Origin: Candidatus Aminicenantota bacterium
GTDB taxonomy: Bacteria > Acidobacteriota > Aminicenantia > UBA2199
Assembly: GCA_030671465.1 (NCBI GenBank)
Contig: DAOVIP010000005.1
Span: forward strand, 1-14,915
Length of the DNA: 14,915 nt
Reading direction: 5' to 3'
Both the position numbers and the translations under genes were made by a program. The notes below the pieces were generated by a model. It saw only the letters and a list, made by a program, of their open reading frames with translations, ran no database searches and was not told the DNA's origin. Positions 1 to 14,214 of this stretch are shown in pieces. Position 1 is the first letter of the stretch. Every line of letters begins with the position of its first letter.

Positions 1-1522
1 GATTCATGGTGTACAATAATTTCAATTTTCCCATATCCAGATCATTCCGGGGTAGCAATCCCAATAAATAAGCTCCCGCTGTATTGTTTTCTCGGTTTAT
101 GGAGAAAATTTTCAGGCCTTCTCTCTGCTTTATTCCGGAGATATCTGTATCCGGATCATGAAACAAAAGGGTTTCACCGTTTATTTCCTTATCTATATCG
201 GCCAGATTTTCCAGCCGGACCCGGGCAAACTTGGCCAGTTCGGTATTCTCCATATTCACGGCAACCAGTTTGACACCGTTCAGGACCGCCTGTTTGACAA
301 ATGTGGCCGCGACCGGATTATCCCGGGTCATGTCCGTATTGACGACTACAATGGTCTGGGCGTTTTTTATATCCTCGTAATCCAGGCCCATGAAGGCCGG
401 TGATTCAAAATGAAACACATTATCCCCGGACAGGGCCTCATCAAAAAACTTTTTTGCTTGAAACAGATCTTCATTCTTCTCTTTGGTAGATACCAGACAT
501 CCGATCGCTTCGGGACCGTATTTGTCTTTGACTTCATTGATCTTGGCAGCCAGCCAATCCAGAGCCGCTTCCCAGGTTGTTTCAACCAGTTTCCCGTTCT
601 GCCGGATCATGGGTCTGGTCAGCCGGTTTTCGGAGCGAATAAAATCAAAGGCAAAACGACCTTTAAAACACAGTCTGCCTCGATTGGGCAAGCCATCTTC
701 CACACCGTCAACTTTCACGATCTCATTATCCTTGACAAACAGGTCAAGCTGACATCCCACACCGCAATAATGACAGGTGGTCCTGACATGCTTCACATCC
801 CACATCCGGTAATTGAATCGATTCCGCTTTTCAAAAAGGGCACCCACCGGACAACTCTGGATACATTCACCGCAATACACACAATCCGAATCGGGCAGGG
901 TTAGGTCCCCCCTGACCACGATCTTTGCAATATTGCCCCGGTAGCCGTGAGACAGGGCATTGTTCACCTGGATTTCACAGCAGGCCTGGACGCATCGACC
1001 GCACAGAATACATCGTCCGAAATCCCTACCGATCAGAAAATCATCATACTCGAGTGGATATTTGGTGGGGATCCGGTCCATTGTTCTCTCGGTTACTCGA
1101 TATTTATAGGCCAGGGCCTGAAGTTCACACTTTCCATATGCCACACAGATATCATCTGCCTGATCATATTCAACCACATCTTTCTGAAAATCCGACCATT
1201 CCTGGGGATAATTTCCCCGGATCGAACAGTTATGATTCCCGGAAATGAGTAAGAGTTCTATGACCATCTGGCGTGCTTTGACAATTCGGTTCGATTCGGT
1301 AAAGATTTCCATACCATCAGCAGCAGGAGAGGAACAGGATGCAATCGGTCCCGGTGCCCCCTTGACCTCAACAATACAAACCCGGCAGGCTCCGGTGGGA
1401 GGGGCCCCCTTTAAATGACAGAGGGTGGGAATATCAATTCCATTTCGCCTGGCCACTTCCAGAATGGTTTCCCCGGATTCAAACTCACATTGTTTTCCGT
1501 TTATTGTGATTATATTAGCCAT
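1..1522 (-). CDS. NuoG/FdhA-like iron-sulfur protein (SfrA-like), 3' end outside window
   Basis: The frame is open from ATG at 1522 to the window edge (507 codons, no stop), so the gene is partial only because the window ends. Visible order: a [2Fe-2S] ferredoxin domain (C35, C46, C49, C63); a NuoG-type His/Cys cluster region (H97, C99, C126, C132); two [4Fe-4S] sites (C171/C174/C177/C181 and C214/C217/C220/C224); then the start of a molybdopterin-oxidoreductase fold with its own Cys cluster (C250, C253, C257, C285). This is the build of NuoG and of the NAD-linked formate dehydrogenase alpha subunit. The catalytic Cys/Sec motif of formate dehydrogenases is absent near residues 371-378, so formate oxidation is unlikely. 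It starts 22 bases after rnfB, whose C-terminal half is GltD/SfrB-like, which suggests an SfrA-type electron-transfer partner. The family is sure; the role is inferred. Confidence 0.85.
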   Translation of the reverse strand, partial: MANIITINGKQCEFESGETILEVARRNGIDIPTLCHLKGAPPTGACRVCIVEVKGAPGPIASCSSPAADGMEIFTESNRIVKARQMVIELLLISGNHNCSIRGNYPQEWSDFQKDVVEYDQADDICVAYGKCELQALAYKYRVTERTMDRIPTKYPLEYDDFLIGRDFGRCILCGRCVQACCEIQVNNALSHGYRGNIAKIVVRGDLTLPDSDCVYCGECIQSCPVGALFEKRNRFNYRMWDVKHVRTTCHYCGVGCQLDLFVKDNEIVKVDGVEDGLPNRGRLCFKGRFAFDFIRSENRLTRPMIRQNGKLVETTWEAALDWLAAKINEVKDKYGPEAIGCLVSTKEKNEDLFQAKKFFDEALSGDNVFHFESPAFMGLDYEDIKNAQTIVVVNTDMTRDNPVAATFVKQAVLNGVKLVAVNMENTELAKFARVRLENLADIDKEINGETLLFHDPDTDISGIKQREGLKIFSINRENNTAGAYLLGLLPRNDLDMGKLKLLYTMN

Positions 1523-1544
1523 TTTACTCTTTCTGGATCAATCC

Positions 1545-3554
1545 CTAGTAAGCGGAAATTTCCTCTTTATTGACTTTGTCCAATTTTTTCTTGTAACAGA
1601 TCAAACCACAATTCAAGCAGCGGTTGGCATGATATCTGGCCTCAGCCTCATCCACAGTGATCCGATTATCAATAATTCCCCGGGAAGCCATCAAATCCTT
1701 TTTATCGGCAATTTCAAATATATTCTGCAGTTCTTTGTCATCAACAATTACACCCGCATCAGGGGATATCTCCTCACCTGAGACATATTGTTGGATGGCT
1801 TTGGCCATTTTCCTGCCTCTTCCCACTGCCACCACTACACCGGCGAGATCAGTAGGTCTTCCGGTTTCAGCAATGGTGAATATTCCCACCTGTGATTCCC
1901 GGGGAAGTACCTTGAAAATATCCACAGTCTTCCATTGGGTTGCCTTTGTTTTTTCAATCAACATTTCCGGATAACGGCCCGAACTGACAATCAGGTTGTC
2001 CAGGCTCAACTTCTGGATCTCATCATTGACAACCCTCAGGGATAATGACTTTAATTGATCCCCGTTGCCTTCCAGTTCGACCGGAGTGGCTGAAAAAATG
2101 TATTTTACTTTTTTTGACCCGTTTAATTCAATGTTTCGGAATTCCGTCTCTTGCTTGGTGAAAGGAAGCACAACCGTTACCTGCTCGGCCCCGTTTCCCA
2201 GACAGACATCTGCCGCCCTGGATGAAGTACTGCCTCCGCCGATGATAACAATCTTTTTTTTCAAATCGATTTTTATATTTTTTGAAGCGGCAATTAACAG
2301 GTCAAGCAACAAATATGATCCGGGAATTATATTCTCTCCCCAGATGTTATCTCTAAGTATCTGACGGCTATCCCAACCACCGGTGGTCAGCAGGACCATA
2401 TCGGTTCCCGAGGAAAACATGGATCCCAGGCTGAAATCCTTCCCCATGGTTTTCCCGGTTTTTGCTTCGATTCCGGTTTCCAGAATACTGTCAATCTCCC
2501 AGTCCAGGACATTCCGGGGTAATCGATCCTCGGTAATCACATATCTAAGAATTCCACCTAAACGGTCAGTGGCTTCCATGACTTTGGGGGCATGATCCAG
2601 TCTCCTCAGATAATAGGCTGCGGTTAATCCCTCAACCCCGCCCCCCACAATGACAATGTTTTTTCCCTTGGCCGGTGGCAAGTAGTCGGGTAAAATCCTC
2701 TGACCGGAAGTCATCTCATACTGGGAAACAAATTTTTTCAAGGCATTGATCCCCACCGGTTCATCGATCAGGTTCCGCCGGCATTCAAACTCACAGGGGG
2801 CCGGGCATACCCATCCGCAAATCAAGGGAAAGGGATTTTTTTCCTTTATGACCCTGACGGCTTCAAGATAATTGCCTGCGGAAATCTGCCGGATATATTC
2901 GGGAATATCGATCTCAGCCGGGCAATTTCTCTGACAGGGTGCGGTACACTCACTCTTTTTCTGGTTGGCTTTGATCCTCCGGGTTGCCGATGAAAGGGTA
3001 ATGATGTCCTTGGGACAAACTTCAACGCAAACCCCGCAACCCGTACAGCGGTCCAGATTGACAACCGGCAGGTTATTTTCACCCATGGAAAGGGCATTGA
3101 AGGGACAGGAAACCACGCAGGTTCTCAGGCCCAGACAGCCGATGTGGCATTCCTTGCTGCCTTCGTAAAGCAGCATGGCAGCCCGGCAATCCAAAACCCC
3201 GTCATAAGTAAATTTTAAATCCGCATCCTGATAACCGTAATAACATCCCGGCCTGGCAAAATCCGGTTCTTTCTGTTCCACTTTTTTACCCATAACCTCC
3301 GCTACCTGCTGGGCAATTTCAAAACCTCCGGCCGTACAGACATCAAGCTCGGCTTTACTCTTTACCACTGCTTCGGCAGCGGCAGCACAACCGGCATATC
3401 CGCATCCGCCACAATTGGCTCCCAGAAGAGCTCCCTCCACCTGTTCGATGCGGGGGTCCTCCCAAACATATAATATTTTAGAGGCAATGGCCAGCATTAT
3501 GGAAGCCATCAATCCCAAACCCAGTAGCATTAGAAACGAATTCAAAATGATCAT
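1545..3554 (-). CDS. rnfB: RnfB fused to a GltD/SfrB-type Fe-S FAD oxidoreductase
   Basis: 669 residues, far longer than ordinary RnfB (roughly 180-330). Residues 1-190 are RnfB: an N-terminal membrane segment (about 4-24), the cluster motif GANCGGCGYAGC (C48, C51, C56, with C73), and two ferredoxin clusters (C136/C140/C146/C150 and C170/C173/C176/C180). Residues 200-275 form the Cys-rich N-terminal domain of the glutamate-synthase small subunit (C203, C207, C211; C246, C250, C254, C258). An FAD Rossmann motif follows (G304, G306, G309, with E327), then a second dinucleotide site (GGG at 439-441) and a C-terminal Cys set (C646, C649, C653). RnfB normally passes electrons between cytosolic ferredoxin and the membrane subunits; the added part resembles NAD(P)H-oxidising GltD/SfrB. 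It starts 13 bases after rnfA with a purine-rich SD. One continuous frame supports a genuine fusion. Confidence 0.92.
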   Translation of the reverse strand: MIILNSFLMLLGLGLMASIMLAIASKILYVWEDPRIEQVEGALLGANCGGCGYAGCAAAAEAVVKSKAELDVCTAGGFEIAQQVAEVMGKKVEQKEPDFARPGCYYGYQDADLKFTYDGVLDCRAAMLLYEGSKECHIGCLGLRTCVVSCPFNALSMGENNLPVVNLDRCTGCGVCVEVCPKDIITLSSATRRIKANQKKSECTAPCQRNCPAEIDIPEYIRQISAGNYLEAVRVIKEKNPFPLICGWVCPAPCEFECRRNLIDEPVGINALKKFVSQYEMTSGQRILPDYLPPAKGKNIVIVGGGVEGLTAAYYLRRLDHAPKVMEATDRLGGILRYVITEDRLPRNVLDWEIDSILETGIEAKTGKTMGKDFSLGSMFSSGTDMVLLTTGGWDSRQILRDNIWGENIIPGSYLLLDLLIAASKNIKIDLKKKIVIIGGGSTSSRAADVCLGNGAEQVTVVLPFTKQETEFRNIELNGSKKVKYIFSATPVELEGNGDQLKSLSLRVVNDEIQKLSLDNLIVSSGRYPEMLIEKTKATQWKTVDIFKVLPRESQVGIFTIAETGRPTDLAGVVVAVGRGRKMAKAIQQYVSGEEISPDAGVIVDDKELQNIFEIADKKDLMASRGIIDNRITVDEAEARYHANRCLNCGLICYKKKLDKVNKEEISAY

Positions 3555-3567
3555 GATCTTCTCTCAG

Positions 3568-4167
3568 TCATTTCATCATCAACGCCTGAAGCGAATTATC
3601 AATCCCTAAAAATCCGTAAAAGGCCAGGGCCATCAGGCCTGCCATTACCAGGGCAATGGCCGTATCCTGAAGGGCTCGCGGAATAAAGGATATCTCAAAC
3701 CTTCCCCGGATCCCGGCAAAAAGTATCAGGGCCAGCAAAAATCCGACTCCTGAAAACAGTGCATAAAAGAGACTCTGCAAAAAATTAAATTCATTATTGA
3801 TGCAAAGGACCGCCACACCCAGAATGGCACAATTGGTGGTGATGAGAGGCAGAAAAATCCCCAGTGCCTTATACAGGGCAGGCGCCAGTTTTTTCAGGAA
3901 CATTTCGATCAACTGAACCAGGGCTGCAATCACCAGAATAAAGACAATGGTCTGGAGATATTCAATCTGCAGGATTACCAGGATATAATGATACACAAAC
4001 CAGGTGATACTGGTGGCAAAGGTTATAACGAAAATCACGGCCATGCCCATACCGGTGGCGGTTTCCATTTTTTTGGAAACTCCCATAAATGGACAATTCC
4101 CCAGATACTGGGCCAGAAGAATATTTTTTACCAAAATAGCATTGATGGCCAGGATAATATATTCCAT
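3568..4167 (-). CDS. rnfA: Rnf electron transport complex subunit A
   Basis: 199 residues, the normal RnfA length, almost wholly hydrophobic with about six membrane segments. It carries the family motif GNCPFMG near the N-terminus and TTNCAILG in the middle. These two Cys, with their counterparts in RnfE, are the ligands proposed for the intramembrane [2Fe-2S] cluster that carries electrons across the membrane. RnfA and RnfE are distant homologues that pack in opposite orientation. The start follows the rnfE stop by 12 bases, and the rnfB start follows its stop by 13, so it is translated within the same operon. Nothing odd is seen; both cluster Cys are kept although other subunits here have lost cofactor motifs. 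Confidence 0.96.
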   Translation of the reverse strand: MEYIILAINAILVKNILLAQYLGNCPFMGVSKKMETATGMGMAVIFVITFATSITWFVYHYILVILQIEYLQTIVFILVIAALVQLIEMFLKKLAPALYKALGIFLPLITTNCAILGVAVLCINNEFNFLQSLFYALFSGVGFLLALILFAGIRGRFEISFIPRALQDTAIALVMAGLMALAFYGFLGIDNSLQALMMK

Positions 4168-4179
4168 TTAAAACTCCAT

Positions 4180-4773
4180 TTATTTTTTGGGAAATAAATT
4201 CATGATACCCAGAATCAGCCCCAGACAAACAAAGGCCCCGGGTGCACTCACCATAAAGGCAAAGGGTTCAAATGAATCCCACATCACCTGCATTCCCAAA
4301 AATGTACCTTTGCCCAGAATTTCCCGGATTGAGCTGATCAGTATCAAAGAGAGGGTAAAACCCAGCCCGATTCCCAGGCCATCAGCAGCAGAGAGATAAA
4401 TCGGATTTTTGGAGGCAAAGGCCTCGGCCCGTCCCAGGATAATACAATTCACCACAATCAGATTTATAAACAAACCGAGCTGCTGGGATATTGAAAAAAA
4501 GTAAGCCTTCATCACCAGTTCAACGATCACCACAAAAGTGGCAATCACAACAATATAAGAAGCAATCCTGACTTTCTTGGGGATCAGGTTTTTTATGGAA
4601 GATATGATAACATTTGAGAAAAACAGAACGAAGGTGGTGCTCAGGCCCATCCCGATCCCATTTTCAACAGCCGTGGTCACGGCCAGGGTCGGACACAATC
4701 CCAGAACCAGTTTAAAGGGGGGAAGTATTTCCCAGAATCCTTTTAAAAATTCCTGTGAAATCGTTTTATTCAT
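4180..4773 (-). CDS. rnfE: Rnf electron transport complex subunit E
   Basis: 197 residues, slightly short for RnfE, with about six hydrophobic helices. The N-terminal stretch has the typical FWEILPPFK-like start and GLCPTLAVTT; the second motif VNCIILGRAEAFA is also intact. The two Cys match the RnfA/RnfE intramembrane iron-sulfur site. Like RnfA it is an inner-membrane core subunit of the ion-pumping complex. It begins 21 bases after the rnfG stop, and rnfA follows after 12 bases. No lost residues were noticed. Confidence 0.95.
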   Translation of the reverse strand: MNKTISQEFLKGFWEILPPFKLVLGLCPTLAVTTAVENGIGMGLSTTFVLFFSNVIISSIKNLIPKKVRIASYIVVIATFVVIVELVMKAYFFSISQQLGLFINLIVVNCIILGRAEAFASKNPIYLSAADGLGIGLGFTLSLILISSIREILGKGTFLGMQVMWDSFEPFAFMVSAPGAFVCLGLILGIMNLFPKK

Positions 4774-4794
4774 TGATCAATCGTCCTATCCTCA

Positions 4795-5370
4795 CTATTT
4801 TTTCCCCAGTACTTTGTCTTTGATGGTGGCATACAAAGCAATGCTCTTTTTAACAGCCGAACACACGGCCCTGGAGGATATGGTGGCTCCGGAAACCGCA
4901 TCGATTATTCCGTTATCCTGTTTGACCTTGAAGGCTTCATTGATGGCCCTGCCTTTGAAATTATCCGTGAAGACAGCCTCGGAGACCCGGGCACCCAATC
5001 CGGGTGTTTCCTGATGGGTCAATATACCGATTCCGGAAATCATATCCTGGCTCAGGTTAAAACCCACCATCACCCCGATTTTACCTTTGTAACCCGTTCC
5101 CATGGTTTCAAAGGCAATTGCCCAGGATTTGCCATTCTTCTTGCCAATGAAAACAACTTTTTGCTCCCCGTCAATCGTGATCTGCTCCCGGTCACCAATA
5201 AAATCATTGGTAGATGAAGCCAGAACCTTTTTGAGGGCCGGCCCCTGAACATTCAATAGAAATTGCTCTTCAATCCGCTTTTCCGTTCCCTTTTTTACCG
5301 CTGCCAGTAACAGACCGCAGAGGGCTGCAATAATGGTCAAAACCGCCACCATCCGGAAATATTCTTTCAT
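4795..5370 (-). CDS. rnfG: Rnf electron transport complex subunit G (covalent FMN)
   Basis: 191 residues: one N-terminal membrane anchor (about 6-25) and a periplasmic FMN-binding domain. The signature HQETPGLG is at 119-126. The flavin attachment motif DAVSGAT ends at T163 and is followed by ISSR, so covalent FMN-phosphothreonine is expected. The flavin would need an ApbE-type transferase, which is not in this window. The start codon overlaps the rnfD stop in an ATGA (5367-5370), implying translational coupling. The intact site contrasts with RnfD in the same operon. In cytochrome-linked Rnf systems RnfG is a plausible partner of the periplasmic haem protein. Confidence 0.95.
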   Translation of the reverse strand: MKEYFRMVAVLTIIAALCGLLLAAVKKGTEKRIEEQFLLNVQGPALKKVLASSTNDFIGDREQITIDGEQKVVFIGKKNGKSWAIAFETMGTGYKGKIGVMVGFNLSQDMISGIGILTHQETPGLGARVSEAVFTDNFKGRAINEAFKVKQDNGIIDAVSGATISSRAVCSAVKKSIALYATIKDKVLGKK

Positions 5371-6338
5371 GTCACCCTTCTATCAATATAATAAATTGCT
5401 GTTGGCCGGGGTCTTTTCTTGATATTATCCAGCAGGGGGGTAAACAGATTCATAATCAATATGGCAAAGAAAACCCCATCCGGATAAATGCTCCAGATCC
5501 GTAAAATCATGGTCAAAAAACCGCAGCCGAAACCGAAGATAATCATTCCCCATTTATTGAAGGGAGAACTGGCAAAGTCAGTGGACAGGAAAAATATCCC
5601 CAGCATGAGGTTCCCGGTCAGAAGGTGGAAAAGCGGGTTGGCGAATTGATGGCTGTCAATCAACCAGAAAAATGCAGCTACCGATAAAACACCCGCTGCA
5701 AAAGACAGGGGGATTTCCCAGGTTATAATCCCTCTAATCAATAGATAAATGCCTCCAATTAACAGGAGTAATATGGCAATACTTCCGATTCCACCCACCT
5801 GCTTGCCCAGGAGAAGATCGATGAGTTTAATATCTGAAATAAATTCCACCCCCCCCTTTTTCAATAAGATCAAGGGGTAACGGAAGCTGAATCCCAGATC
5901 ATAATTCACCGAAGCCAGGTCCAGATTATAATAGGCCGGCCAGGAAATCCGGGTAATGGCCCAGCCAACCAAAACCGGATTCAGCGGACTGCTGCCCAGG
6001 CCCCCGAAAATCTCCTTTCCGATAAAAATACACAGAAAAGCACCGATAATGACCAGCCAGTAGGGAACACTCGGGGGAAGAATCATGGCAAAAACCAGAC
6101 CGATCAGTACCGCGCTCCCATCAAAAATGGTAGTGGATTTCTTGAACATCTTTCGAATGATCAGTTCACTCAAAACCGTGGTAACCACAGCCAGAGAAAT
6201 GACCCGGGCCGCATGAAATCCAAAGGTATAAATCGCATACAAAAAAGCCGGAAGCAGGACAATGATCAGCTGGGCATTAATTTTGGCCACACTGATATTT
6301 TTGTGCCAATGGGGGGGGCTGGAAACAACTAGGTTCAT
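5367..6338 (-). CDS. rnfD: Rnf electron transport complex subunit D with altered flavin site
   Basis: 323 residues with about nine to ten membrane helices. Family marks include FDGSAVLIGLVFAMILPPSVP (71-91), GKEIFGGLGSSPLNPVLVG (107-125), TWEIPLSF (206-213) and a late FLSTDFASSPFNKWG stretch. Ordinary RnfD holds FMN covalently on the Thr of an SGATPL motif. The aligned stretch here is FSFRYPLILLKKGG (150-163), with Y154 where that Thr is expected, so covalent flavin attachment at this place looks lost. Both ends overlap neighbours by ATGA (rnfC stop, rnfG start). Two eight-base G/C runs lie inside the gene, but the frame stays open and the protein reads sensibly on both sides. Confidence 0.93.
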   Translation of the reverse strand: MNLVVSSPPHWHKNISVAKINAQLIIVLLPAFLYAIYTFGFHAARVISLAVVTTVLSELIIRKMFKKSTTIFDGSAVLIGLVFAMILPPSVPYWLVIIGAFLCIFIGKEIFGGLGSSPLNPVLVGWAITRISWPAYYNLDLASVNYDLGFSFRYPLILLKKGGVEFISDIKLIDLLLGKQVGGIGSIAILLLLIGGIYLLIRGIITWEIPLSFAAGVLSVAAFFWLIDSHQFANPLFHLLTGNLMLGIFFLSTDFASSPFNKWGMIIFGFGCGFLTMILRIWSIYPDGVFFAILIMNLFTPLLDNIKKRPRPTAIYYIDRRVT

Positions 6339-7528
6339 GATTCCGTTTCTCCCTGAATTTTTTTCAGTTCACTTTTCGCCAGTTTAATGAATTGAACCAG
6401 AGAGCGGCCCGATGGGCAATAATAGGCACACAAGCCGCACTCGATACAATCAAACACATCCAGTTCCTGGCATTTTTCAAACATTGAAAACTCGGAAAAT
6501 CTGCATATGAGGTTTACATCCAGTTTTACCGGGCATACCCGAACACATTTTCCGCAACTGATACAGGATTTATTTTCATTCAATACGACTTGGCTTGAAT
6601 CCTGAATATAGATCAAATCAATGTCATCCCCGACAGGAATAATCGTATGATATCCGGAATAACCCCGGAAAGGACCTCCGAGAATCAGTTTGTCATTGGC
6701 ATCAATTCCGGTTTTCTGGCAGATATCTTTGACCAGGGTTCCCATTCTAACCCGGATATTTTTTTTCTGGTTCTTTTCCACAACGGTGACCACTTTATGA
6801 ACAAATGGTTTTCCCTCCTTCAGGGCAACCACAGCGGCAGTCAACTTTTCCACATTCATGAAACCGCATTTTCCCACTTGGCCGGTGCGGCAAATATCCG
6901 GTATCAGGATCTCGGGCAGTCCATTCGGATATTGGGGTTTTACCGGAAAAACTTCCGCTACATCACCGGGAATTTCTGTTCCCAATTCAGACAGATTCTG
7001 GGGAATGGCGAAAATGACTTTCCGGGCCGAGGTCAAATATTTGATTAAACTTAAACCCTCAAGGGTCAGATATTTATTTTCTCTCCAAATTTGCTGCTGG
7101 ACCAAACTCAGCGGATCCTGCTCGACAGCACTGATTATCATAGTTTCCAGAGGTTCCAGGTTATCTCTGAAACCCAGGTTGGCTCGATTCAGGCTTTTTA
7201 AGATTTCAGCGGGATCTTTTTTTAAAAAATCCGGTTCCGCTTTTATTTCCGGATCCAGTTGTTCCTTTTCATCCAGCTCGATCCTGAGTGCTGAAAATTC
7301 TTCATCCCTCATCATCAAAGGGTCGATACTTTTTATGGTACCGGTAACCGTGGAATATAATCCCGGTAAAATCTCATGACCGGTTTCCAGGTAATTCCCC
7401 ACCCTGAGATTCAGCCGAGCCTGATTGGAATTAAAACCTATCAGGGGGATAAGGACTTCGGCTGGCTCCGGGGCATCGATGATAGCTATATCTTCTTGGC
7501 TTAAAGTCAGGTGATCATTGGTTTTCAT
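6335..7528 (-). CDS. rnfC: Rnf electron transport complex subunit C, degenerate FMN/NADH site
   Basis: 397 residues, somewhat short for RnfC. The N-terminal barrel-like part (24-70) and the middle SLBB-like region (245-295, with LILGGPFRG) are recognisable. The two C-terminal [4Fe-4S] sites are intact: C322/C325/C328/C332 and C361/C364/C367/C371, each ending in CP. RnfC is normally the cytosolic NADH dehydrogenase subunit with FMN. The motifs for that, AGxxGxGGAGFPT and IINxAECEPY, are missing: the matching stretch (about 112-148) reads ANLGFRDNLEP and IISAVEQDPL, with the Gly-rich loop and the ECEP Cys gone. YPSGGAKQL has also become YPNGLPEIL. It probably carries electrons through its clusters but may not bind NADH. 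It starts 5 bases after the cytochrome stop; the SD is weak. Confidence 0.92.
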   Translation of the reverse strand: MKTNDHLTLSQEDIAIIDAPEPAEVLIPLIGFNSNQARLNLRVGNYLETGHEILPGLYSTVTGTIKSIDPLMMRDEEFSALRIELDEKEQLDPEIKAEPDFLKKDPAEILKSLNRANLGFRDNLEPLETMIISAVEQDPLSLVQQQIWRENKYLTLEGLSLIKYLTSARKVIFAIPQNLSELGTEIPGDVAEVFPVKPQYPNGLPEILIPDICRTGQVGKCGFMNVEKLTAAVVALKEGKPFVHKVVTVVEKNQKKNIRVRMGTLVKDICQKTGIDANDKLILGGPFRGYSGYHTIIPVGDDIDLIYIQDSSQVVLNENKSCISCGKCVRVCPVKLDVNLICRFSEFSMFEKCQELDVFDCIECGLCAYYCPSGRSLVQFIKLAKSELKKIQGETES

Positions 7529-7533
7529 CAGTT

Positions 7534-8226
7534 TTACTCTTCTTCATGACACAGGGTACAATCGTCGACCCCATCGCTGTGACACTCGATACAATTCTTG
7601 CCAATACACCTCATATGGATATCGGCGTCCTCACAAATTTGAGTATATTTTGTATTGTAATGACATCGCCGGCAATTCATGGGAAAGACTCCTGGCTTTT
7701 TCCTTTGATAACCATGGTGACAGGTTTGGCACTCGATATCATATTCATCCGGGGCGGCGTGGGAAAAATGGTTAAAAACAACCGGTCCGCCATCGGTCTC
7801 AAAGGTGATCTCTTTGGGTTCGGCAATGGTTTCGAAATGATCGGCATTATGACAGAACTCGCAACCGACCGAACCCTGAACATGGCAATCCAGGCAGTTC
7901 TTGCCGATACATTTCTTGTGAATGGCCTCATCCTCACACATCCCAATATGATCTTTGCGGTAATGACAATCCCGGCAATTCATTTGATCGGAATCCTGGT
8001 CACCGGATTTATAATTGTGATGACACTCCTGGCAGGTCATATCCTTGAGTGACGTATGATACCGGTGGTCAAAAACAACCCCCCCTCCCTTGGTGTCAAA
8101 GGCCACCCTCAGAGGTTCCTTCTGCTTTTCAAAAACAAATCCCCAGAGGGCCAGAATTACCAAAATCAGAATAACCGCTCCGAAAATAATCTCTTTTCTT
8201 TTAGTTAAAATTTTAACTTTATCCAT
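7534..8226 (-). CDS. membrane-anchored octaheme c-type cytochrome (tandem c3-like domains)
   Basis: 230 residues. A short basic start and one hydrophobic helix (about 13-31) act as an uncleaved signal anchor, placing the rest in the periplasm. There are eight CxxCH haem sites, starting at C65, C84, C111, C122, C166, C185, C212 and C223. The second four repeat the first four at exactly 101 residues, so the protein is a duplicated tetraheme domain of the cytochrome c3/c7 type. Each domain also has FxH and xYH/xSH histidines ahead of its first haem, likely axial ligands. It is the first gene of the rnf operon, as cytochromes are in several Desulfobacterota and in methanogen Rnf systems, and should exchange electrons with RnfG or a periplasmic carrier. 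An in-frame TGA lies just upstream, so this ATG is the first possible start; its SD is poor. Confidence 0.95.
   Translation of the reverse strand: MDKVKILTKRKEIIFGAVILILVILALWGFVFEKQKEPLRVAFDTKGGGVVFDHRYHTSLKDMTCQECHHNYKSGDQDSDQMNCRDCHYRKDHIGMCEDEAIHKKCIGKNCLDCHVQGSVGCEFCHNADHFETIAEPKEITFETDGGPVVFNHFSHAAPDEYDIECQTCHHGYQRKKPGVFPMNCRRCHYNTKYTQICEDADIHMRCIGKNCIECHSDGVDDCTLCHEEE
7537..8085 (-). repeat. internal duplication: two tetraheme domains, 303-bp period
   Basis: Residues 48-129 (7840-8085) and 149-230 (7537-7782) of the cytochrome align without gaps over all four haem motifs and a conserved non-haem Cys pair (C97/C106 and C198/C207, each before CIGKNC). The period is 101 codons. Confidence 0.85.
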
Positions 8227-8369: not shown

Positions 8370-8756
8370 TTATTCTTTCAGCAATCCTTTTATGGTGGCA
8401 ATCAAATCATCGGGATCAATCGGTTTTTCCATGAATTTTTCGACTGGCAGGAAATTGCCGTCTTCTTCAATGTTAAATTTGAATTTGCTTATCTGATTCA
8501 CCGCAGTTGCCAGTATGATTGGAATATGTTTGAATTTTTCATTCATTTTTACATACTGGGCAAAATTGAAACCGTCACTGTCCTTTTCCATCATGACATC
8601 CAGGATGATCAGATCAATTTCTTCACTTTCCAAAATCTCTCCCGCAACTTTGATAGTTGTAGCCTGAACCACATCATAATTACTGTGTTCTAAAATAATC
8701 TTTCGGGCTTCCAATACATCGATATCATCATCAATATCTAATATTTTCTTCATCAT
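8370..8756 (-). CDS. stand-alone response regulator receiver protein
   Basis: 128 residues, a single receiver (REC) domain and nothing more. The acidic pocket is D9-D11, the phospho-acceptor is D53 in LIILDVMM, the switch residue is T84, and K111 precedes P112. There is no DNA-binding or enzyme output domain, so it would act by protein contact, as CheY- or Spo0F-like proteins do, or in a phosphorelay. The start has two adjacent Met codons (8756 and 8753). The SD AGGAGG at 8761-8766 is 4 bases from the first and 7 from the second, so the second may be used. The SD overlaps the stop of the kinase gene, which implies paired expression. Its place between hydrogenase and rnf operons suggests a link to H2 or redox state, but its target is unknown. 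Confidence 0.9.
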   Translation of the reverse strand: MMKKILDIDDDIDVLEARKIILEHSNYDVVQATTIKVAGEILESEEIDLIILDVMMEKDSDGFNFAQYVKMNEKFKHIPIILATAVNQISKFKFNIEEDGNFLPVEKFMEKPIDPDDLIATIKGLLKE

Positions 8757-8764
8757 GATTCCTC

Positions 8765-9463
8765 CTAATTCATTAAAGGTAGTTTTATGGTTAATGTTGT
8801 TCCCACACCCACGGTACTATCCACATCAATGGACCCTTCATGGTCCTTGATGATCTGGTTGACCAGAGAAAGTCCCAGGCCGATACTGCCATCGATATTT
8901 CTCCTGGCCTCTTTGCCCCGGGAGAAGATAGTAAATATGCTTTCAATATCCTCCGGAGGAATTCCGATTCCGGTATCACTGATCTCAACCACGATCAGTC
9001 TGCCGAATTTTTCAAAACATCGGATATCAATCCGGCCATTTTCTTTATTGTATTTAACCGCATTCATAATGACATTATTAAAAGCCCTCAACAAGAAGGT
9101 ATAATTTCCGAAAACGTACTTTTCCCGGCAGGATCCCTGCGAATAGTGGATCGAAATATTGTTTTGACGGGCATAGTGCTCAATGATCGAATAAGATTCA
9201 TCAATAATTTCAATCAGGTTCAACCGTTCCCGCTTCATCTGGGATTTATTCTCCAGAAGCGTATAATCCAGGATATCCTCAACAATTCTGATGAGCCCTT
9301 CCGATTTCTTCCTGGCTCTGGTGATGAGTTCCAAGACTTTTACCGGGTCATCCACATATCCCTTTTCCACTACATTCAGCAGATCGACCACGGCAGACAG
9401 GGGGGCTTTCAAATCATGGGCAATAACTGCCAGACTCTTAACATTTTCCTCTATTTTTGACAT
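8765..9463 (-). CDS. cytosolic histidine kinase without a sensor domain
   Basis: 232 residues. The phospho-accepting His is H16 in IAHDLKAPL, only 15 residues from the N-terminus, followed by the dimerisation helices. The ATPase domain has an N-box (FNNVIMNAVKYN, N130 and N134), G1 (DTGIGIPPE, from D163), an F-box-like IFTIFSRG and G2 (GSIGLGLSL, 193-200). No PAS, GAF, HAMP or membrane segment is present, so any signal must come through a partner protein or another subunit. The SD AGAGGA is well placed. It begins about 30 bases after the hydrogenase protease gene and ends 8 bases before its receiver protein, so it is likely co-transcribed with the hydrogenase. A partner sensor may lie elsewhere. 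Confidence 0.9.
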   Translation of the reverse strand: MSKIEENVKSLAVIAHDLKAPLSAVVDLLNVVEKGYVDDPVKVLELITRARKKSEGLIRIVEDILDYTLLENKSQMKRERLNLIEIIDESYSIIEHYARQNNISIHYSQGSCREKYVFGNYTFLLRAFNNVIMNAVKYNKENGRIDIRCFEKFGRLIVVEISDTGIGIPPEDIESIFTIFSRGKEARRNIDGSIGLGLSLVNQIIKDHEGSIDVDSTVGVGTTLTIKLPLMN

Positions 9464-9493: not shown

Positions 9494-9985
9494 TCAGACA
9501 ATTAAATCACCTTTATCAATATCCAGCATGACTTCATCGTAGACCTGTTCAACCAGAGATGGCAATGCCTGCTCCACAACCGGGCTCAATTTTTCTGACA
9601 TGGCAATTTCATCGGGCTGGATACAGTAAATCACCACATCAGGATTTCCCTTCTGTCTAATCCTGGGAGCGATATCCAGAAAATCAATTAAATCAAACTC
9701 ATGTAATGAATAACCCTTGGCTTCCTTTAAACTATTCACCTCATCCCGATGAAATCTCCGAAATTCTCCGGGCTGAATGCCGCAATTGCCCGCATCAATG
9801 AATATTATTTTTTCCCTCTCGTCGAATTGATGAAGAAGATTCATCCCGCAGGTACCGGCCTCTACTAGGTCAATTTCTTTTCCCTTCAATTTTTCTCCTA
9901 GTATTCGGGTGGCATGAAGACCTGCCCCCTCATCTGCCAGGAGTGTGTTACCCAGGCCAATAACCGCTATTTTATGTCTTTTCAT
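9494..9985 (-). CDS. [NiFe] hydrogenase maturation endopeptidase
   Basis: 163 residues, normal for the HybD/HycI family. The start motif GLGNTLLADEGAG is intact, and the three nickel-probing residues of HybD have counterparts in E19, D64 (FIDAG) and H95 (SLHEFDL). The enzyme removes the C-terminal tail of the hydrogenase large subunit once nickel is inserted. It follows hydA by 3 bases with only a weak SD, so translation is probably coupled. The likely substrate is the HydA tail in the same operon, which is just eight residues after the last cluster His. Confidence 0.93.
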   Translation of the reverse strand: MKRHKIAVIGLGNTLLADEGAGLHATRILGEKLKGKEIDLVEAGTCGMNLLHQFDEREKIIFIDAGNCGIQPGEFRRFHRDEVNSLKEAKGYSLHEFDLIDFLDIAPRIRQKGNPDVVIYCIQPDEIAMSEKLSPVVEQALPSLVEQVYDEVMLDIDKGDLIV

Positions 9986-9988
9986 ATA

Positions 9989-11293
9989 CTATTTTTTAAA
10001 TTCCACATTTAAAAAGTGGGTGGAACAGGATATACATGGATCATAGGCCCTGACCAGCATTTCCAGGTTGAACTGCAAATCCTTCTCCGGAAGGCTCAGC
10101 ATCTCGGGCACCATCTTCTCAAAATCCATCTGAATATTGTTGTGATTCAAATTGGTGGGGATCACACAATTGGCTGCCACACAAATACCATCATCATTAT
10201 AGGAGTAATCATGGAACAGAATACCCCGGGGAACTTCAACTGCTCCGACTCCCTGGCCATTTTTTACCTCGATATCAGGCTTCTCCATTTTTAATTCCTG
10301 ACCCAGCAACCATTCAATATGACTGATTGACCGCTCCACGGCAAAGACACATTCTACCACCTGAGCCGCATTGTTCTGGTATGGACTGATATTGATACCT
10401 GGCTTCAAGCCCAGCATTTCGGCAATCTGTTGACTCAAAGGGGTCAACTGACTATGGTTGTTGTTGTAGCGGGCCAGGGCGCCCACCATGAATGAGGCCC
10501 GGTTAAACTTTCCATACTTGGCTGTGGATTGAGGTACCACAAACTCATTCACCACACCCTTGTATTCATCAGGGGATATATTTTTATCAATATCTGTGGT
10601 GGTAACCTGTCCATCATAAAAAGCATATTCCTCGTCGTATGTCAGCGATAGGTACTCGGTCTCCCGGTTGAAGTCAGGGAATCCACCTGAAACCGATTTA
10701 AAAATCTCGGCCAGTTTCAACAGGTCCCCTTTAGCCTCCTCCAGCCGCCTCTTCAACTCTTCCAATTCTTGCCAGGTGGGCAACATGGTGAAATGTCCCA
10801 CTTTGGCCCGGATGGGATGGGTAGTCCGACCACCGATCACATCACACAGTTCATTGGACAGCCGGTGTAACTTGGTCACCAGCAGCACCGCATCCGGGTG
10901 ACTCGCGATCAGGGGAATGACACTGTTGACCTTGAACAGATCGGGCAGTACCAGATAACAAACATGCAAAATGTGACTCTGAAGTGTTTCTCCGTGAAGC
11001 AACAATTCACGCAATACCCGGGTTTGTTCGGAGATATTGATTCCCAGAGCAGCCTCGGTTGCTTTCAAACTGGCACAGGTGTGACCGATCGAGCATATAC
11101 CGCATATCCTTGAGGTGATGGTGGCCAGTTCAGAATACGCCCTGCCCACAACCATGGTCTCAAAAAATCGCGGTGCCTCTGGCACCTGCCACTCGAGCTT
11201 TTCTATATTTCCATCTTTAACATCCACCACAATATTACCGTGACCTTCCACACGGGTCAGATGCCTGACATTTATCTTGACTTCTTTACTCAT
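9989..11293 (-). CDS. hydA: group 3b-like [NiFe] hydrogenase large (alpha) subunit
   Basis: 434 residues. It carries the active-site motifs L1, RICGICSIGH (C64, C67, H71), and L2, DPCISCSTH (C420, C423, H426), which hold the Ni-Fe centre. The N-terminus shows the usual TRVEGHG. After H426 only eight residues remain, a very short tail like those of sulfhydrogenase-type enzymes; the adjacent protease should remove it. All four Ni ligands are Cys, with no in-frame TGA. The start overlaps the hydD stop by ATGA (11290-11293) and has a strong SD (GGAGGT). Next to HydB, HydG and HydD it forms a cytosolic heterotetramer that couples H2 to NAD(P)H. The subgroup is assigned from subunit make-up, not from a tree. 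Confidence 0.94.
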   Translation of the reverse strand: MSKEVKINVRHLTRVEGHGNIVVDVKDGNIEKLEWQVPEAPRFFETMVVGRAYSELATITSRICGICSIGHTCASLKATEAALGINISEQTRVLRELLLHGETLQSHILHVCYLVLPDLFKVNSVIPLIASHPDAVLLVTKLHRLSNELCDVIGGRTTHPIRAKVGHFTMLPTWQELEELKRRLEEAKGDLLKLAEIFKSVSGGFPDFNRETEYLSLTYDEEYAFYDGQVTTTDIDKNISPDEYKGVVNEFVVPQSTAKYGKFNRASFMVGALARYNNNHSQLTPLSQQIAEMLGLKPGINISPYQNNAAQVVECVFAVERSISHIEWLLGQELKMEKPDIEVKNGQGVGAVEVPRGILFHDYSYNDDGICVAANCVIPTNLNHNNIQMDFEKMVPEMLSLPEKDLQFNLEMLVRAYDPCISCSTHFLNVEFKK

Positions 11294-12045
11294 TTCTTTA
11301 CCTCCGGATTCACTCCAAATAAATTAATCGTCCGTTTGATCTCCTCAACGGTGTAATTATATTTATCCAATATCTCATGCATGGCATTCTTATTGGGATT
11401 ATCCACCGTTCCTCTACAGGCTTCGCAGGGTGAACCATTCGAAGGGCAAATCGCCCCGCAACCCGCTCGGGCCAGTGGTCCCAGGCAAATCACACCTTTG
11501 TCAAACAGGCAAATATTTTCTTTTAACTTGCACTCCACGCATACCGGATGATTGGGTAAACGGGGTATTTTACCCAGACTCAACTCCTTAACCATACGTA
11601 AGAACTCATCCCGGTTAATTGGACACCCCGGGATATATAAATCCACCTTTACCACTTCATCGACTCCTTTGGTGGGATAGGTATCCAGATGAGGCATGTA
11701 GGAATCATCACCGTACACACACTTCTTGACATCATCCATGCTGTGCCAGATATTCTTCAACCGGTTGATCCCGCCGTTGACCGCACACTGTCCATAGGCC
11801 ACCAGCAACTTGGAGCGTTCCCTTATATCTTTTAATCGTTTCTCGTCTGATTTGCGGGTTATTGATCCTTCGATAAACGCTATATCATAAGTTTCTGATG
11901 TGCTGCCTGTCATCACTTCCCTGAATTCTACCAAATCGACCAGATCCAACAGCTTGATGATATCTTCCTCCAGATTCGCCACCTGCAATTGACATCCCTC
12001 GCAACAAGCAAAATCAAAAAATGCTACCTTCGGCTTATCACTCAT
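11290..12045 (-). CDS. hydD: group 3b-like [NiFe] hydrogenase small (delta) subunit
   Basis: 251 residues with no twin-arginine signal, so the enzyme is cytosolic. It begins with the small-subunit motif FFDFACCEGCQLQ (C14, C15, C18). GQCAVNGG and IPGCPIN complete the proximal [4Fe-4S] set. A Cys-rich C-terminal part (CVECK, then further Cys to CEACRG) holds the medial and distal clusters. It relays electrons from the Ni-Fe site of HydA to the HydB/HydG flavin and iron-sulfur subunits. The SD AAGGAGT sits 9 bases before the ATG and overlaps the end of hydG, whose stop is 1 base upstream. It ends in an ATGA overlap with hydA. Confidence 0.94.
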   Translation of the reverse strand: MSDKPKVAFFDFACCEGCQLQVANLEEDIIKLLDLVDLVEFREVMTGSTSETYDIAFIEGSITRKSDEKRLKDIRERSKLLVAYGQCAVNGGINRLKNIWHSMDDVKKCVYGDDSYMPHLDTYPTKGVDEVVKVDLYIPGCPINRDEFLRMVKELSLGKIPRLPNHPVCVECKLKENICLFDKGVICLGPLARAGCGAICPSNGSPCEACRGTVDNPNKNAMHEILDKYNYTVEEIKRTINLFGVNPEVKK

Positions 12046-12046
12046 C

Positions 12047-12970
12047 TTAAATTACTCCTTTTATGTAACTGATATCATTGTAGTAGAATACAGGACCGTC
12101 CTGACATACATAAATATCCTCAATCTGGCAATGACCGCATTTGCCAACTCCACATTTCATCCGCCTCTCCAGCGATAAAATAATATGGTCATCGGAAAGC
12201 TCCATATCATGGAGGTTCATGATAGCAAATTTATACATGACCGGCGGGCCCACCACAATGGCATAGGTCTCACGCGGGTCTACATAATCCAACTTGGGAA
12301 ACAGGGTAGTAATTACTCCAACATTATCCTTCCACTTCTTCGATTTCCATTCATCCACCGGACCTCGGTAGGATAAATCCATGTGGCTCATTTCCAGATA
12401 GGTGGACAGATCGGTGGTATCGACCGTTTCATAGAACACAATATCATCACGCTGTTTCCATTGTTCCAGTTCATCGACAAATAGACGCTGGGCCGGATCT
12501 TTGCATCCGAACAGAATGGATATATTCTTGTAATCATCCCGGTGTTCCAGTGCATACTTGATGGCTGAACGGGCCGGCACCAAGCCGATACCTCCGCAGA
12601 TAAATAGCAAGCTGCTTCCCTTTAAGGCTTCCATGGGAAAAGAGGTGCCGTAAGGTCCCCGGACACCCACCTTTTCTCCGACTTCCAAACTGTGAATGGC
12701 TGAGGTAACGGTTCCCACTTTGCGGATCACCATTTCAAATCGATTATCGGTAGCGGGCGGCGAGGAAACGGATATGGGTGCCTCACCAATACCCGGAATG
12801 GATATTTCGGCAAACTGACCGGGACGATGGCCCAGGCTGTGATCCCTTAGCTCGAAACTGAAATAGGTATCAAATGGGGTCATAGGTCTTTTTTCTCTCA
12901 GCGTAGCCACCTCGGGCAGATAGATCGATGTCTTTTCTATCACTTCTTTATGTGGATAAGTTTCAGCCAT
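12047..12970 (-). CDS. hydG: group 3b-like hydrogenase FAD/NAD(P)-binding (gamma) subunit
   Basis: 307 residues from the ATG at 12970. A longer frame reaches 13075, but the perfect SD AGGAGG at 12976-12981 and overlap avoidance with hydB favour the internal start. Domains: a ferredoxin-reductase-type FAD domain (RPGQF 49-53, PISVSS 65-70); an NAD(P) domain starting FICGGIGLVPARS (123-135); and a C-terminal [2Fe-2S] site (C273, C278, C281, C289), as in dihydroorotate dehydrogenase PyrK and sulfhydrogenase gamma. It oxidises or reduces NAD(P)H and links to HydB. The hydB stop is 10 bases upstream and hydD starts 1 base after its stop. NADH or NADPH preference cannot be read from the sequence alone. 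Confidence 0.93.
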   Translation of the reverse strand: MAETYPHKEVIEKTSIYLPEVATLREKRPMTPFDTYFSFELRDHSLGHRPGQFAEISIPGIGEAPISVSSPPATDNRFEMVIRKVGTVTSAIHSLEVGEKVGVRGPYGTSFPMEALKGSSLLFICGGIGLVPARSAIKYALEHRDDYKNISILFGCKDPAQRLFVDELEQWKQRDDIVFYETVDTTDLSTYLEMSHMDLSYRGPVDEWKSKKWKDNVGVITTLFPKLDYVDPRETYAIVVGPPVMYKFAIMNLHDMELSDDHIILSLERRMKCGVGKCGHCQIEDIYVCQDGPVFYYNDISYIKGVI

Positions 12971-12975
12971 GATTT

Positions 12976-12981
12976 CCTCCT
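12976..12981 (-). promoter_or_regulatory. ribosome binding site deciding the hydG start
   Basis: AGGAGG on the minus strand, 5 bases before the ATG at 12970. It touches the hydB stop codon (12981-12983) and settles the internal start over the longer frame to 13075. Confidence 0.8.
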
Positions 12982-14003
12982 CACTGCTTTTCCAGAATAT
13001 ATTTGAACACTTTGTTCGGTCCGGCAATATCAGCGGTACAGGCATCCGCACACCTTCCGCATCCCACACACCCAAAATAGCGGTACCTGTCAGGAAGGTA
13101 TTTTACTTTTCTGAATGTTCGATGTTTGAATCGATCCGCCCGGTCTCTGCGAAAATTGTGACCGTCAGCAACCACGGCAAAATTCTCCAGCATACAGCCG
13201 TCCCAGACCTTTATCCGTTGACCCGCAGCCAGGGTGAGATCGATTTCTTCGCACACATCAAAACAGTAGCAGGTAGGGCAAACGAAAACACAGGAACCGC
13301 AGGAAAAACATTTATCCCCAAAATATTTCCAAACCGAATGATAGTAATTCCGAGTTAAAAATTCTGAAGCGATATCCACTGTAACCGGCAGTTTCTGATC
13401 GTCTTTGATATGGGTCTTGGCTTCTTCGACCTGCTTCAGGCTGTAGGTATTCTTTTTTAGTTGACTGCCCTTCAGGTAATTTTTCCCTTTTTCACTGACC
13501 ACTTCGATAACATATTCATCTCCCATATCCACCAGCATCAGGTCCGCCACCTTGTAGTATTGGTCTTTAACCACAGATCTTGAAAAACGTTGCTTAAAAT
13601 GCTTTTGGGGATAGCTGCCGATCAACAGGGAATTTTCTCTTTTCTTGATATAGTGTTCATCACCATCACCATCTGAAAAAGCCCGGTCCATCAGGTAAAT
13701 GGCAGCCAGATCATAATAGTGAATCCCGAAAATGGTGATGGGATCGTAGCTGTTAACCGCCACGTAGCTCTCAACGTTTTTGGGAGCAAATTTTAACATG
13801 ACCTCCTTCTGGGGTTGAAAATACTTTTTAGGAGGCAGTATGGTAACGTCATAGTCAAGTCTCAAGTCCTTTGATGACTGCAAGTCATCAAATACAAAGT
13901 GGGAACCCTTTTGAATGACCCCCACAATTCTGGATTTTTTTTCCGACATTTTTTTATCAACAAAAGACAAGAAATTCTTTTTTGAAATTTTTAAGAGTTC
14001 CAT
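12981..14003 (-). CDS. hydB: group 3b-like hydrogenase iron-sulfur (beta) subunit
   Basis: 340 residues from the ATG at 14003. The frame extends to 14078, but AGGAGA (14010-14015) marks this start and the upstream part would cover the promoter. The N-terminal 220 residues have no simple motif but match the sulfhydrogenase beta pattern. Two ferredoxin-type clusters follow: C232/C235/C238/C242 with an extra C245/C247/C251, then WDGCML (267-272), and C312/C315/C318/C322. The last Cys is followed by Thr rather than the usual Pro. The subunit passes electrons between HydD and HydG. It is the first gene of the hydrogenase operon and lies behind a good promoter. Confidence 0.92.
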   Translation of the reverse strand: MELLKISKKNFLSFVDKKMSEKKSRIVGVIQKGSHFVFDDLQSSKDLRLDYDVTILPPKKYFQPQKEVMLKFAPKNVESYVAVNSYDPITIFGIHYYDLAAIYLMDRAFSDGDGDEHYIKKRENSLLIGSYPQKHFKQRFSRSVVKDQYYKVADLMLVDMGDEYVIEVVSEKGKNYLKGSQLKKNTYSLKQVEEAKTHIKDDQKLPVTVDIASEFLTRNYYHSVWKYFGDKCFSCGSCVFVCPTCYCFDVCEEIDLTLAAGQRIKVWDGCMLENFAVVADGHNFRRDRADRFKHRTFRKVKYLPDRYRYFGCVGCGRCADACTADIAGPNKVFKYILEKQ

Positions 14004-14009
14004 GATTTG

Positions 14010-14015
14010 TCTCCT
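14010..14015 (-). promoter_or_regulatory. ribosome binding site deciding the hydB start
   Basis: AGGAGA on the minus strand, 6 bases before the ATG at 14003. It supports this start over the longer reading to 14078. Confidence 0.8.
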
Positions 14016-14042
14016 ATAAAACGATACATAATTAAGATTATT

Positions 14043-14194: not shown

Positions 14195-14214
14195 GAATCA
14201 GAAGCGAAAATATC

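Follow-up and report, generated by a model that had tools for sequence, protein, structure and literature searches.

A probable second, cytochrome-linked Rnf complex in Candidatus Aminicenantota, short of two flavin sites on the arm to NAD

In the Rnf complex of Acetobacterium woodii, electrons follow a U-shaped path from RnfB through the RnfA/E cluster (AE1), the flavin mononucleotide (FMN) of RnfG, the flavins of RnfD and the clusters and FMN of RnfC to NAD (PMC11889175; this and all other papers are cited from the accessible parts of their text). In Methanosarcina acetivorans a cytochrome gene, that of MmcA, stands beside rnf and the sources report no use of NAD(P) (PMC4023990, PMC6703419); in Desulfovibrio the operon has the order dhcA-rnfCDGEABF (PMC4841214, PMC4287179, PMC10920352). 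Here we describe an rnf operon on a stretch of 14,915 nucleotides, called the window, from a Candidatus Aminicenantota bacterium (GenBank assembly GCA_030671465.1, contig DAOVIP010000005.1, our C275, from base 1). The operon probably encodes a second Rnf complex, linked to a cytochrome, whose return arm to NAD has been dismantled and whose cytoplasmic port is an NADH/ferredoxin module of the Stn or Bfu (bifurcating) type. We put the probability of this reading at a little under 60%; the function is deduced from sequence, and the complex could run in either direction.

From position 8226 down to 2, on the minus strand only, the gene order is cytochrome, rnfC, rnfD, rnfG, rnfE, rnfA, rnfB and a NuoG-like gene (Table 1). 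Homologues of the C, D, G, E, A and B subunits of Rnf thus sit together in one operon, with support from Pfam and NCBIfam. The metagenome-assembled genome (MAG) is fragmented (2.41 Mb in 521 contigs, 88% complete). The closest named relatives of the window RnfB are Candidatus Aminicenantes proteins, and genomes of the same family show the same gene order with an RnfB 56–74% identical to it. Since the operon recurs in related genomes, its layout is not due to chance, and an origin by chance or artefact was rejected.

Table 1. Location of the window operon and of the genes compared with it (aa, amino acids; positions in the window unless a locus, L, is named)
Feature	Position	Strand	Basis and remarks
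NuoG-like Fe-S protein, cut by contig end	2-1522	-	507-aa open reading frame (ORF); complete Aminicenantes relatives 667-678 aa
RnfB fused to StnC/GltD-type FAD domain (residues ~196-600), C-terminal RCLxCGLxCY	1545-3554	-	669 aa; Fer4_20 and Pyr_redox_2 domains after the RnfB N-terminus
RnfA, other two [2Fe-2S] cysteines	3568-4167	-	TIGR01943 247 bits; cysteine columns
RnfE, two of the [2Fe-2S] cysteines	4180-4773	-	TIGR01948 237 bits; cysteine columns
RnfG with covalent-FMN motif SGAT	4795-5370	-	NF045876 RnfG_DVU2794 236 bits, cut-off 205; motif DAVSGATISS
RnfD without covalent-FMN threonine motif	5367-6338	-	TIGR01946 250 bits; motif alignment and scan
RnfC without FMN/NADH motifs, both 4Fe-4S motifs present	6335-7528	-	397 aa; profile scores and alignment
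Octahaem class III-type cytochrome c, N-terminal hydrophobic anchor	7534-8226	-	PF02085 51.6 bits; exactly eight CxxCH; anchor read from sequence
Canonical rnfCDGEAB of the window genome	L101 (G000:C341) 2408-7369		RnfC and RnfD flavin motifs intact
NuoF fused to GltD	L103 3905-6970		
NuoF fused to GltD	L105 1746-4814		
NuoF fused to GltD	L106 2371-5439		
NuoF fused to GltD, two copies	L104 2707-5838 and 6365-9445		

Loci encoding a fused RnfB, in which a flavin adenine dinucleotide (FAD) domain follows the RnfB N-terminus, were collected with the fused RnfB as query (best 80 loci, among the matches listed); canonical controls were the non-fused matches of the same scan together with the window genome's own canonical Rnf. 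The window RnfC reaches neither the cut-off of TIGR01945 (181 bits, cut-off 246) nor that of the Nuo51 FMN domain (27.2 bits, cut-off 31.2). In the alignment the GG[AG]xFPT stretch is deleted, the N..ECEP stretch reads SAVEQDP and both 4Fe-4S cysteine motifs are intact. A preliminary description, made from the window alone, had called this RnfC devoid of its FMN/NADH motifs, and both the profile scores and the alignment bear it out. Beside a fused RnfB, each of the 16 distinct RnfC that could be read has lost these motifs, the window included (L105 lies on the same contig as L021 and was counted once; the truncated L026 and L059 were dropped). The TIGR01945 score was rejected as a test of RnfC, as motif-less RnfC such as those of L038, L041, L050, L052 and L064 exceed the cut-off. 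Rejected too was a restriction of the motif loss to the RnfB fusion: the RnfC of L064, L066, L068, L077, L082 and L097 are also motif-less, and there the RnfB match stops between residues 194 and 241. In L065, likewise motif-less, a plain 266-aa RnfB-like ORF lies upstream and the contig ends before the operon does.

A second site, in RnfD, is lost as well, a feature beyond those of the preliminary description. The covalent FMN of A. woodii RnfD is carried by Thr156 (PMC11889175). With a motif of the type [ST]x[AP]T[PA][LM], scored by the threonine of [AP]T[PA], canonical RnfD read xTATPL or SGATPL where the window RnfD reads SFRYPL. The threonine is present in 0 of 18 distinct fused-operon RnfD against all 24 canonical rows in which the site is covered (all but L089), and the seven other rows with lost RnfC motifs are also without it. 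The pattern is missing from ten of ten further operons scanned (L146–L155, hand-picked, among 31 genomes with rnf loci, from genomes with a stand-alone fused RnfB). Among the best 120 matches listed for an RnfD query against proteins, 119 lack the pattern and one has it at position 234; no RnfD named D. vulgaris was among these 120. In Na+-NQR, NqrF replaces RnfB and FMN is retained in NqrB; the window differs in keeping RnfB and in having lost the RnfD FMN motif.

The upstream half of the path is preserved. The FMN site of RnfG is retained in the same rows, with Ser instead of Thr in the fused rows L022, L052, L055 and L057, and the aligned cysteine columns of RnfA and RnfE are intact in 18 of 18 fused rows, bar one RnfA cysteine of L059, whose frame is split. 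These columns replaced a first cysteine pattern that was too strict: it missed 1 of 18 fused RnfE and 5 of 6 other motif-less RnfA rows, and among canonical rows 2 of 30 and 4 of 28. Judged by these motifs, the return arm from RnfG through RnfD and RnfC to NAD is short of two flavin sites, and the sites as far as RnfG are retained. Because the sites are intact up to RnfG, the two flavin sites of the return arm are lost and a multihaem gene adjoins, the natural exit would be from RnfG to the cytochrome, and it is there that electrons most likely leave. It could be argued instead that RnfC is still redox-active, its two 4Fe-4S clusters and the riboflavin of RnfD forming a cytoplasmic port to another protein, which would make three ports in all. 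Both cluster motifs are retained in 17 of the 17 fused rows shown, and NqrA, by contrast, is described as devoid of cofactors (PMC12174285). With the RnfD FMN site gone, however, the known connection between RnfG and riboflavin is cut, and RnfC has no known partner; we regard this alternative as rather unlikely.

That an octahaem cytochrome leads the operon stands as first described (Table 1). It is proposed as the periplasmic electron port, its location being predicted. Orthologues occupy the same place in L102, L103, L105 (= L021) and L106. More broadly, a multihaem gene directly precedes rnfC in 9 of 16 fused operons and in all ten of L146–L155, against 0 of 24 canonical operons; the canonical rows L072, L078, L090 and L101 show fewer than 300 bases upstream, and at L067 a gene for a haem protein lies 2.3 kb upstream. 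The leader is decahaem in L054, L060 and L077. A gene for a protein with 22 CxxCH motifs follows the fused rnfB at L052 12696–14315 and L055 12692–14311, in the near-identical MAGs UBA6099 and ADurb.Bin236.

In a maximum-likelihood tree of RnfD, RnfE and RnfA (49 rows, quick method), all 18 fused rows fall with L064 (Desulfofervidaceae) and L077 (Desulfovibrio) into one 20-row clade, with a Shimodaira–Hasegawa-like approximate likelihood ratio test (SH-aLRT) value of 100. Its members come from Thermodesulfobacteriota, Aminicenantes, a spirochaete and others, and the RnfC motifs are lost in all 18 of its rows with a readable RnfC. The canonical Rnf of the window genome falls on the other side of the tree. 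On this evidence, the RnfC and RnfD flavin-site losses mark a deep Rnf clade. They are not confined to it. The Methanosarcina-type rows L066 and L068 resemble the window in missing both motifs and differ in lying outside the clade and in an RnfB match that stops before most of the GltD part; like the Clostridium rows L082 and L097, also lacking both sites, they lie among the canonical rows, so that the two sites are jointly missing in three separate places of the tree. The Clostridium loci are Rnf-like clusters with a short RnfC (310–330 aa), and no haem-protein gene was seen near them, with only ~100 bases upstream covered for L082.

Desulfovibrio Rnf is among the closest described likenesses. 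L054, L059, L060 and L077 belong to the same clade, and the RnfG_DVU2794 model is reached by the window RnfG and by 8 of 9 clade RnfG scanned, being missed by L057 and by the window genome's canonical RnfG. Desulfovibrionaceae were sampled with an RnfD query taken from the clade itself, which matched 38 of 78 genomes. The RnfD FMN motif is missing in 30 of 30 sequences fetched (the best 30 of 46 matches) and the RnfC motifs in 28 of 28 long RnfC (L169 gave no RnfC, L196 only 80 aa); the same sites are thus lost in this sample, which excludes the D. vulgaris and D. alaskensis sequences themselves. No NuoEFG neighbour was seen at the four Desulfovibrio loci. Desulfovibrio Rnf has been named both ferredoxin:cytochrome c3 and ferredoxin:NAD+ oxidoreductase, and in the accessible text of PMC10920352 the choice between NAD and cytochrome c3 is left undecided. 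In D. alaskensis, mutation of rnfA lowers the proton motive force (PMC4841214); that strain's own RnfC and RnfD lie outside the sites compared here. An FAD oxidoreductase has been reported in place of rnfB in Desulfovibrionaceae (PMC11434368), and our comparison suggests that it is probably the fused RnfB. Across 79 Desulfovibrionaceae genomes RnfB is full-length and fused in at least 20 and plain (~300 aa) in at least 9 others; by these counts the fusion is frequent, not fixed.

Within Aminicenantia, RnfC of this kind was found at E values up to 1e-40 in 8 of 142 genomes, and the same eight carry the fused RnfB (41 genomes searched for the fusion; the copy of G005 runs into a contig end). Together with the 16 of 16 motif-less RnfC of fused operons, this agrees with the earlier proposal that the changes belong together. 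Its expected pattern of co-occurrence held in part: no fused RnfB with an intact RnfC was seen, but a NuoG-like neighbour is not general. A canonical RnfC (530–545 bits) is present in seven of these eight genomes, the exception being G001, which is 70% complete. A second standard RnfC, whose work with the window complex would have spoken against that proposal, does exist in the window genome, on C341, but it stands within its own rnfCDGEAB operon (Table 1) and most likely serves the complex encoded there, separate from that of the window; we therefore treat the two Rnf as separate complexes. The presence of canonical Rnf in these genomes might suggest that the window operon is a non-functional paralogue decaying beside it. 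This is very improbable: the reading frames of the window operon are open, the RnfG, RnfA and RnfE sites are conserved, and the deep clade takes in several phyla. Moreover, among 31 further genomes reached through the loci, all of which have an rnfC match (over the family cut-off in 17, several of these being motif-less clade members), a single rnfC match was found in several, for example G143, G145, G146 and G148.

The description of RnfB as carrying a GltD-type flavoprotein also holds (Table 1). By sequence and by fold, the best protein data bank (PDB) matches of the GltD domain are NfnABC (9n5u_A, 9bov_A) and StnC (8oh5_C). Only the ranking of fold matches was used from the AlphaFold model, in which the N-terminal half is weak (mean predicted local distance difference test, pLDDT, 69.8) and global template-modelling scores are low. 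Residues K170 and R239 of StnC, which have been studied (PMC10482914), match the invariant K273 and R344 of fused RnfB (alignment A1; correspondence and numbering by hand).

The preliminary description had gone further, placing NAD(P)H at SfrAB-like domains on RnfB. NAD(P)H would then be oxidised on RnfB's own GltD/SfrB-like FAD domain, with the NuoG-like protein as its SfrA-like partner. The domain does have a true GltD-type FAD fold: among the 115 fused RnfB longer than 600 aa (of the best 120 listed; five shorter ones were left out), the first glycine motif, for FAD, is present in 115 and the C-terminal RCLxCGLxCY in 107. The NADPH arginine motif [YF]RR[TS][RK], in contrast, occurs in none of the 115, against four of four StnC-sized GltD-containing control proteins from related genomes (taken without a family scan) and four of five NuoF-GltD proteins. 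Column conservation in fused RnfB is 0.69 in the first FAD part, 0.48 in the nucleotide part (second Rossmann) and 0.53 in the second FAD part; in the nine controls, which are few and partly close kin, the values are 0.73, 0.67 and 0.66. As the NADPH motif is missing and the nucleotide part is less conserved, the GltD domain of RnfB most likely passes electrons without binding NADPH. Pyridine-nucleotide chemistry has probably not moved onto RnfB, and oxidation of NAD(P)H on this domain is quite unlikely. Geobacter SfrAB is a NuoG-like and GltD-like pair; the GltD half here differs in lacking the NADPH motif, a distinction drawn by description.

The gene behind rnfB is NuoG-like, as first described. 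The 678-aa NuoG-like protein of G001 (L102), the sole complete Aminicenantes relative scanned, has no Mo-dinucleotide domain, which makes a formate dehydrogenase identity of the gene unlikely in Aminicenantes. The spirochaete copy (L022, 912 aa) has the domain, but its catalytic Cys/Sec is missing by reading of the sequence. In G001, of the same genus as the window organism, the NuoG-like gene is followed by genes for NuoE (165 aa) and NuoF (598 aa), and this NuoF scores highest with the bifurcating subunits of NfnABC and StnABC (764, 752 and 739 bits; 9bov_B 764, StnB 8oh5_B 739). Its FMN/NADH motifs are present. Among 14 NuoF examined, NADEGDPG and GEET[AS]L occur in all 14 and the exact RGRGGAGFP in ten, and the NuoEF core with ferredoxin-type C-terminal clusters is present in L102 and L022. 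The order in the spirochaete L022 is cytochrome, rnfCDGEAB, NuoE, NuoF, NuoG. In all, NuoE/NuoF and NuoG lie directly beside the fused RnfB at seven Aminicenantes or spirochaete loci (L021, L022, L102, L103, L104, L106 and L107). With the contig ending inside the NuoG-like gene and the MAG 88% complete, the NuoEF module of the window organism is predicted from these relatives, and the NADH site of the complex is probably in a NuoF encoded downstream. The earlier idea that pyridine-nucleotide chemistry had moved is thus right in that it is gone from RnfC, and its new seat is probably NuoF, not RnfB.

This arrangement shares with StnABC/NfnABC (PMC10482914; PDB 8oh5, 9bov, 9n5u) the NuoE, NuoF, GltD and NuoG modules and the equivalents of K170 and R239, and differs in that GltD is set apart from NuoG, is fused to the membrane subunit RnfB and lacks the NADPH motif. 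The predicted Nuo-Bfu and Mbh-Bfu (PMC9304861) likewise combine a bifurcating NuoEF core and an ion pump in one cluster; the pump here is Rnf, which the accessible text of that paper has once, in a reference. NADPH chemistry may sit in NuoF-GltD proteins (Table 1), four of five of which carry the arginine motif. In L104 two NuoE–NuoF pairs stand in tandem.

That fused RnfB always goes with NuoEFG was rejected: no NuoEFG neighbour is seen at 13 fused operons (L025, L026, L029, L038, L041, L049, L050, L052, L054, L055, L057, L059 and L060), of which L029 shows only RnfA and L049 only ~1 kb behind rnfB, and it is thus not a fixed part of the clade. Neighbours scanned at such operons include ApbE, Pta/AckA/PFOR and others. 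Stand-alone copies of the fused RnfB also occur. At L030, L036, L039, L043, L045, L048 and L051, in Desulfobacterota-type MAGs, one directly follows NuoF; these groups, which lack the other rnf genes, read NuoE–NuoF–fused RnfB, with NuoF alone visible at L036 and L039. The genomes of L030, L039, L043 and L048 all carry, elsewhere, a haem-protein-led rnf operon with a motif-less RnfC; it holds a second fused RnfB in L149 and L155 (genomes of L039 and L043) and a cut-off RnfB in the genomes of L030 and L048. Altogether a second fused RnfB of 694–714 aa lies in a separate rnf operon of five genomes with a stand-alone copy (L149, L150, L153, L154 and L155); the RnfB ORF of L152, from the Desulfatibacillum alkenivorans genome G168 that also carries L062, has 467 aa and is ambiguous, and RnfB is cut off in the remaining four of L146–L155. 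Six further stand-alone copies (L034, L035, L044, L056, L061 and L062) face a divergent FdhA, in 6 of 6 cases with an in-frame TGA in NN[IV]DHCARL-HSS, a selenocysteine-type catalytic site. Given the operons without NuoEFG, their other neighbours and the FdhA-facing copies, GltD may act as a plug into which more than one cytoplasmic partner fits.

The same observations are what a complex fed by ferredoxin only would lead one to expect, with electrons passing from ferredoxin through RnfB to the cytochrome, as proposed for Methanosarcina, and GltD an extra port for certain partners such as NuoEF or formate dehydrogenase. The 13 fused operons without the module, the FdhA-facing copies, the part of Desulfovibrionaceae that lacks the fusion although the sampled RnfC and RnfD sites are missing, and the reported lack of NAD(P) use by M. 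acetivorans Rnf (PMC4023990) all suit it. NuoEFG genes directly behind rnfB in Aminicenantes and a spirochaete do not, nor does the conservation of the FAD glycines and StnC-like residues, which indicates a domain in use. We consider ferredoxin-only input doubtful, though deserving of serious attention.

Several points weigh against a cytochrome-linked complex with an NADH/ferredoxin port. An absent FMN motif is no proof of an absent flavin, and the cluster motifs retained by RnfC argue that it still passes electrons to something. The model proposed for M. acetivorans routes electrons from RnfB by way of RnfC and RnfD to RnfG and names another possible flavin motif in RnfD, and RnfB alone was found not to reduce RnfG (PMC4023990); deletion of MmcA had little effect on growth on acetate (PMC6703419). 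No cytochrome gene lies directly upstream in 7 of 16 fused operons (L025, L038, L041, L049, which is cut, L050, L052 and L055), and the Desulfovibrionaceae cytochrome has been predicted to be cytoplasmic (PMC11434368). On the cytoplasmic side, no NuoF was found in the assembly to which the window belongs, the 13 fused operons without a NuoEFG neighbour lie outside Aminicenantes and the spirochaete, and the NuoF of G003, G010, G011 and G021 (1,021–1,043 aa; L103, L104, L105 and L106) ends in a GltD that replaces the two ferredoxin clusters.

In the mechanism that we propose for the cytochrome-linked complex, electrons would pass from RnfB through RnfA/E and RnfG to the cytochrome, or the reverse, and ion translocation would be retained at the RnfA/E step. 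RnfC and RnfD would remain as a scaffold, perhaps as an ion path. By analogy with the relatives, NuoE, NuoF and the NuoG-like protein would form the cytoplasmic port, a bifurcating or confurcating module that docks on RnfB's GltD domain in the way that the two StnC halves are joined in StnABC. In one direction, electrons of NADH and reduced ferredoxin would be pushed out to the cytochrome and ions pumped; in the other, the ion gradient would draw in electrons of a periplasmic donor, which would then be divided between NAD+ and ferredoxin. More tentatively, and at somewhat less than even odds, the assembly may be a third kind of membrane-bound bifurcating enzyme, 'Rnf-Bfu': a StnABC-type NADH/ferredoxin module, its GltD part being the RnfB C-terminus, on a linear Rnf with RnfG and a periplasmic cytochrome at its far end, confurcating into the cytochrome pool with ion pumping, or working in reverse. 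If so, gene fusion can tie a bifurcating module to Rnf, and Rnf-Bfu run backwards would make NADH and reduced ferredoxin from periplasmic electrons.

Rnf without NAD use in Methanosarcina, the cytochrome of Desulfovibrio operons, the proton motive force defect of the D. alaskensis rnfA mutant and the FAD oxidoreductase replacing rnfB in Desulfovibrionaceae were already known from the papers cited. In the accessible text of the open-licence literature searched, we did not meet a clade marked by loss of both the RnfC and the RnfD flavin sites, the Stn-type RnfB fusion with a missing NADPH motif, or a NuoEFG module behind Rnf. The joint absence makes the question of NAD or cytochrome testable for the Rnf of sulfate reducers, for which it predicts the cytochrome, and it may show how Rnf works in many sulfate-reducing bacteria. 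It also bears on the pump site, which has been placed in RnfD, driven by FMN, in Clostridium tetanomorphum (PMC9588780) and in RnfA/E in A. woodii (PMC11889175): an ion gradient built by a pump without the RnfD FMN would favour RnfA/E.

Upstream of the operon and on the same strand, a NiFe hydrogenase set was read directly from the sequence at 9494–14913, with no family search made: a maturation protease, a large subunit ending in DPCxxCxxH, a small subunit, and FAD/NAD-type and 4Fe-4S subunits. In kind it resembles the cytoplasmic, NAD(P)-linked hydrogenases of group 3. HypA/HypB-like genes lie beside it on the plus strand, and ORFs of similar size occupy the same position in G001 (L102). Between the hydrogenase and the cytochrome (8370–9463), two further genes were likewise read directly, one for a lone receiver-domain protein and one for a small histidine kinase without a sensor; a receiver-kinase protein is encoded upstream of rnfC in L038, and receiver-kinase genes lie near the stand-alone fused RnfB of L031 and L035.

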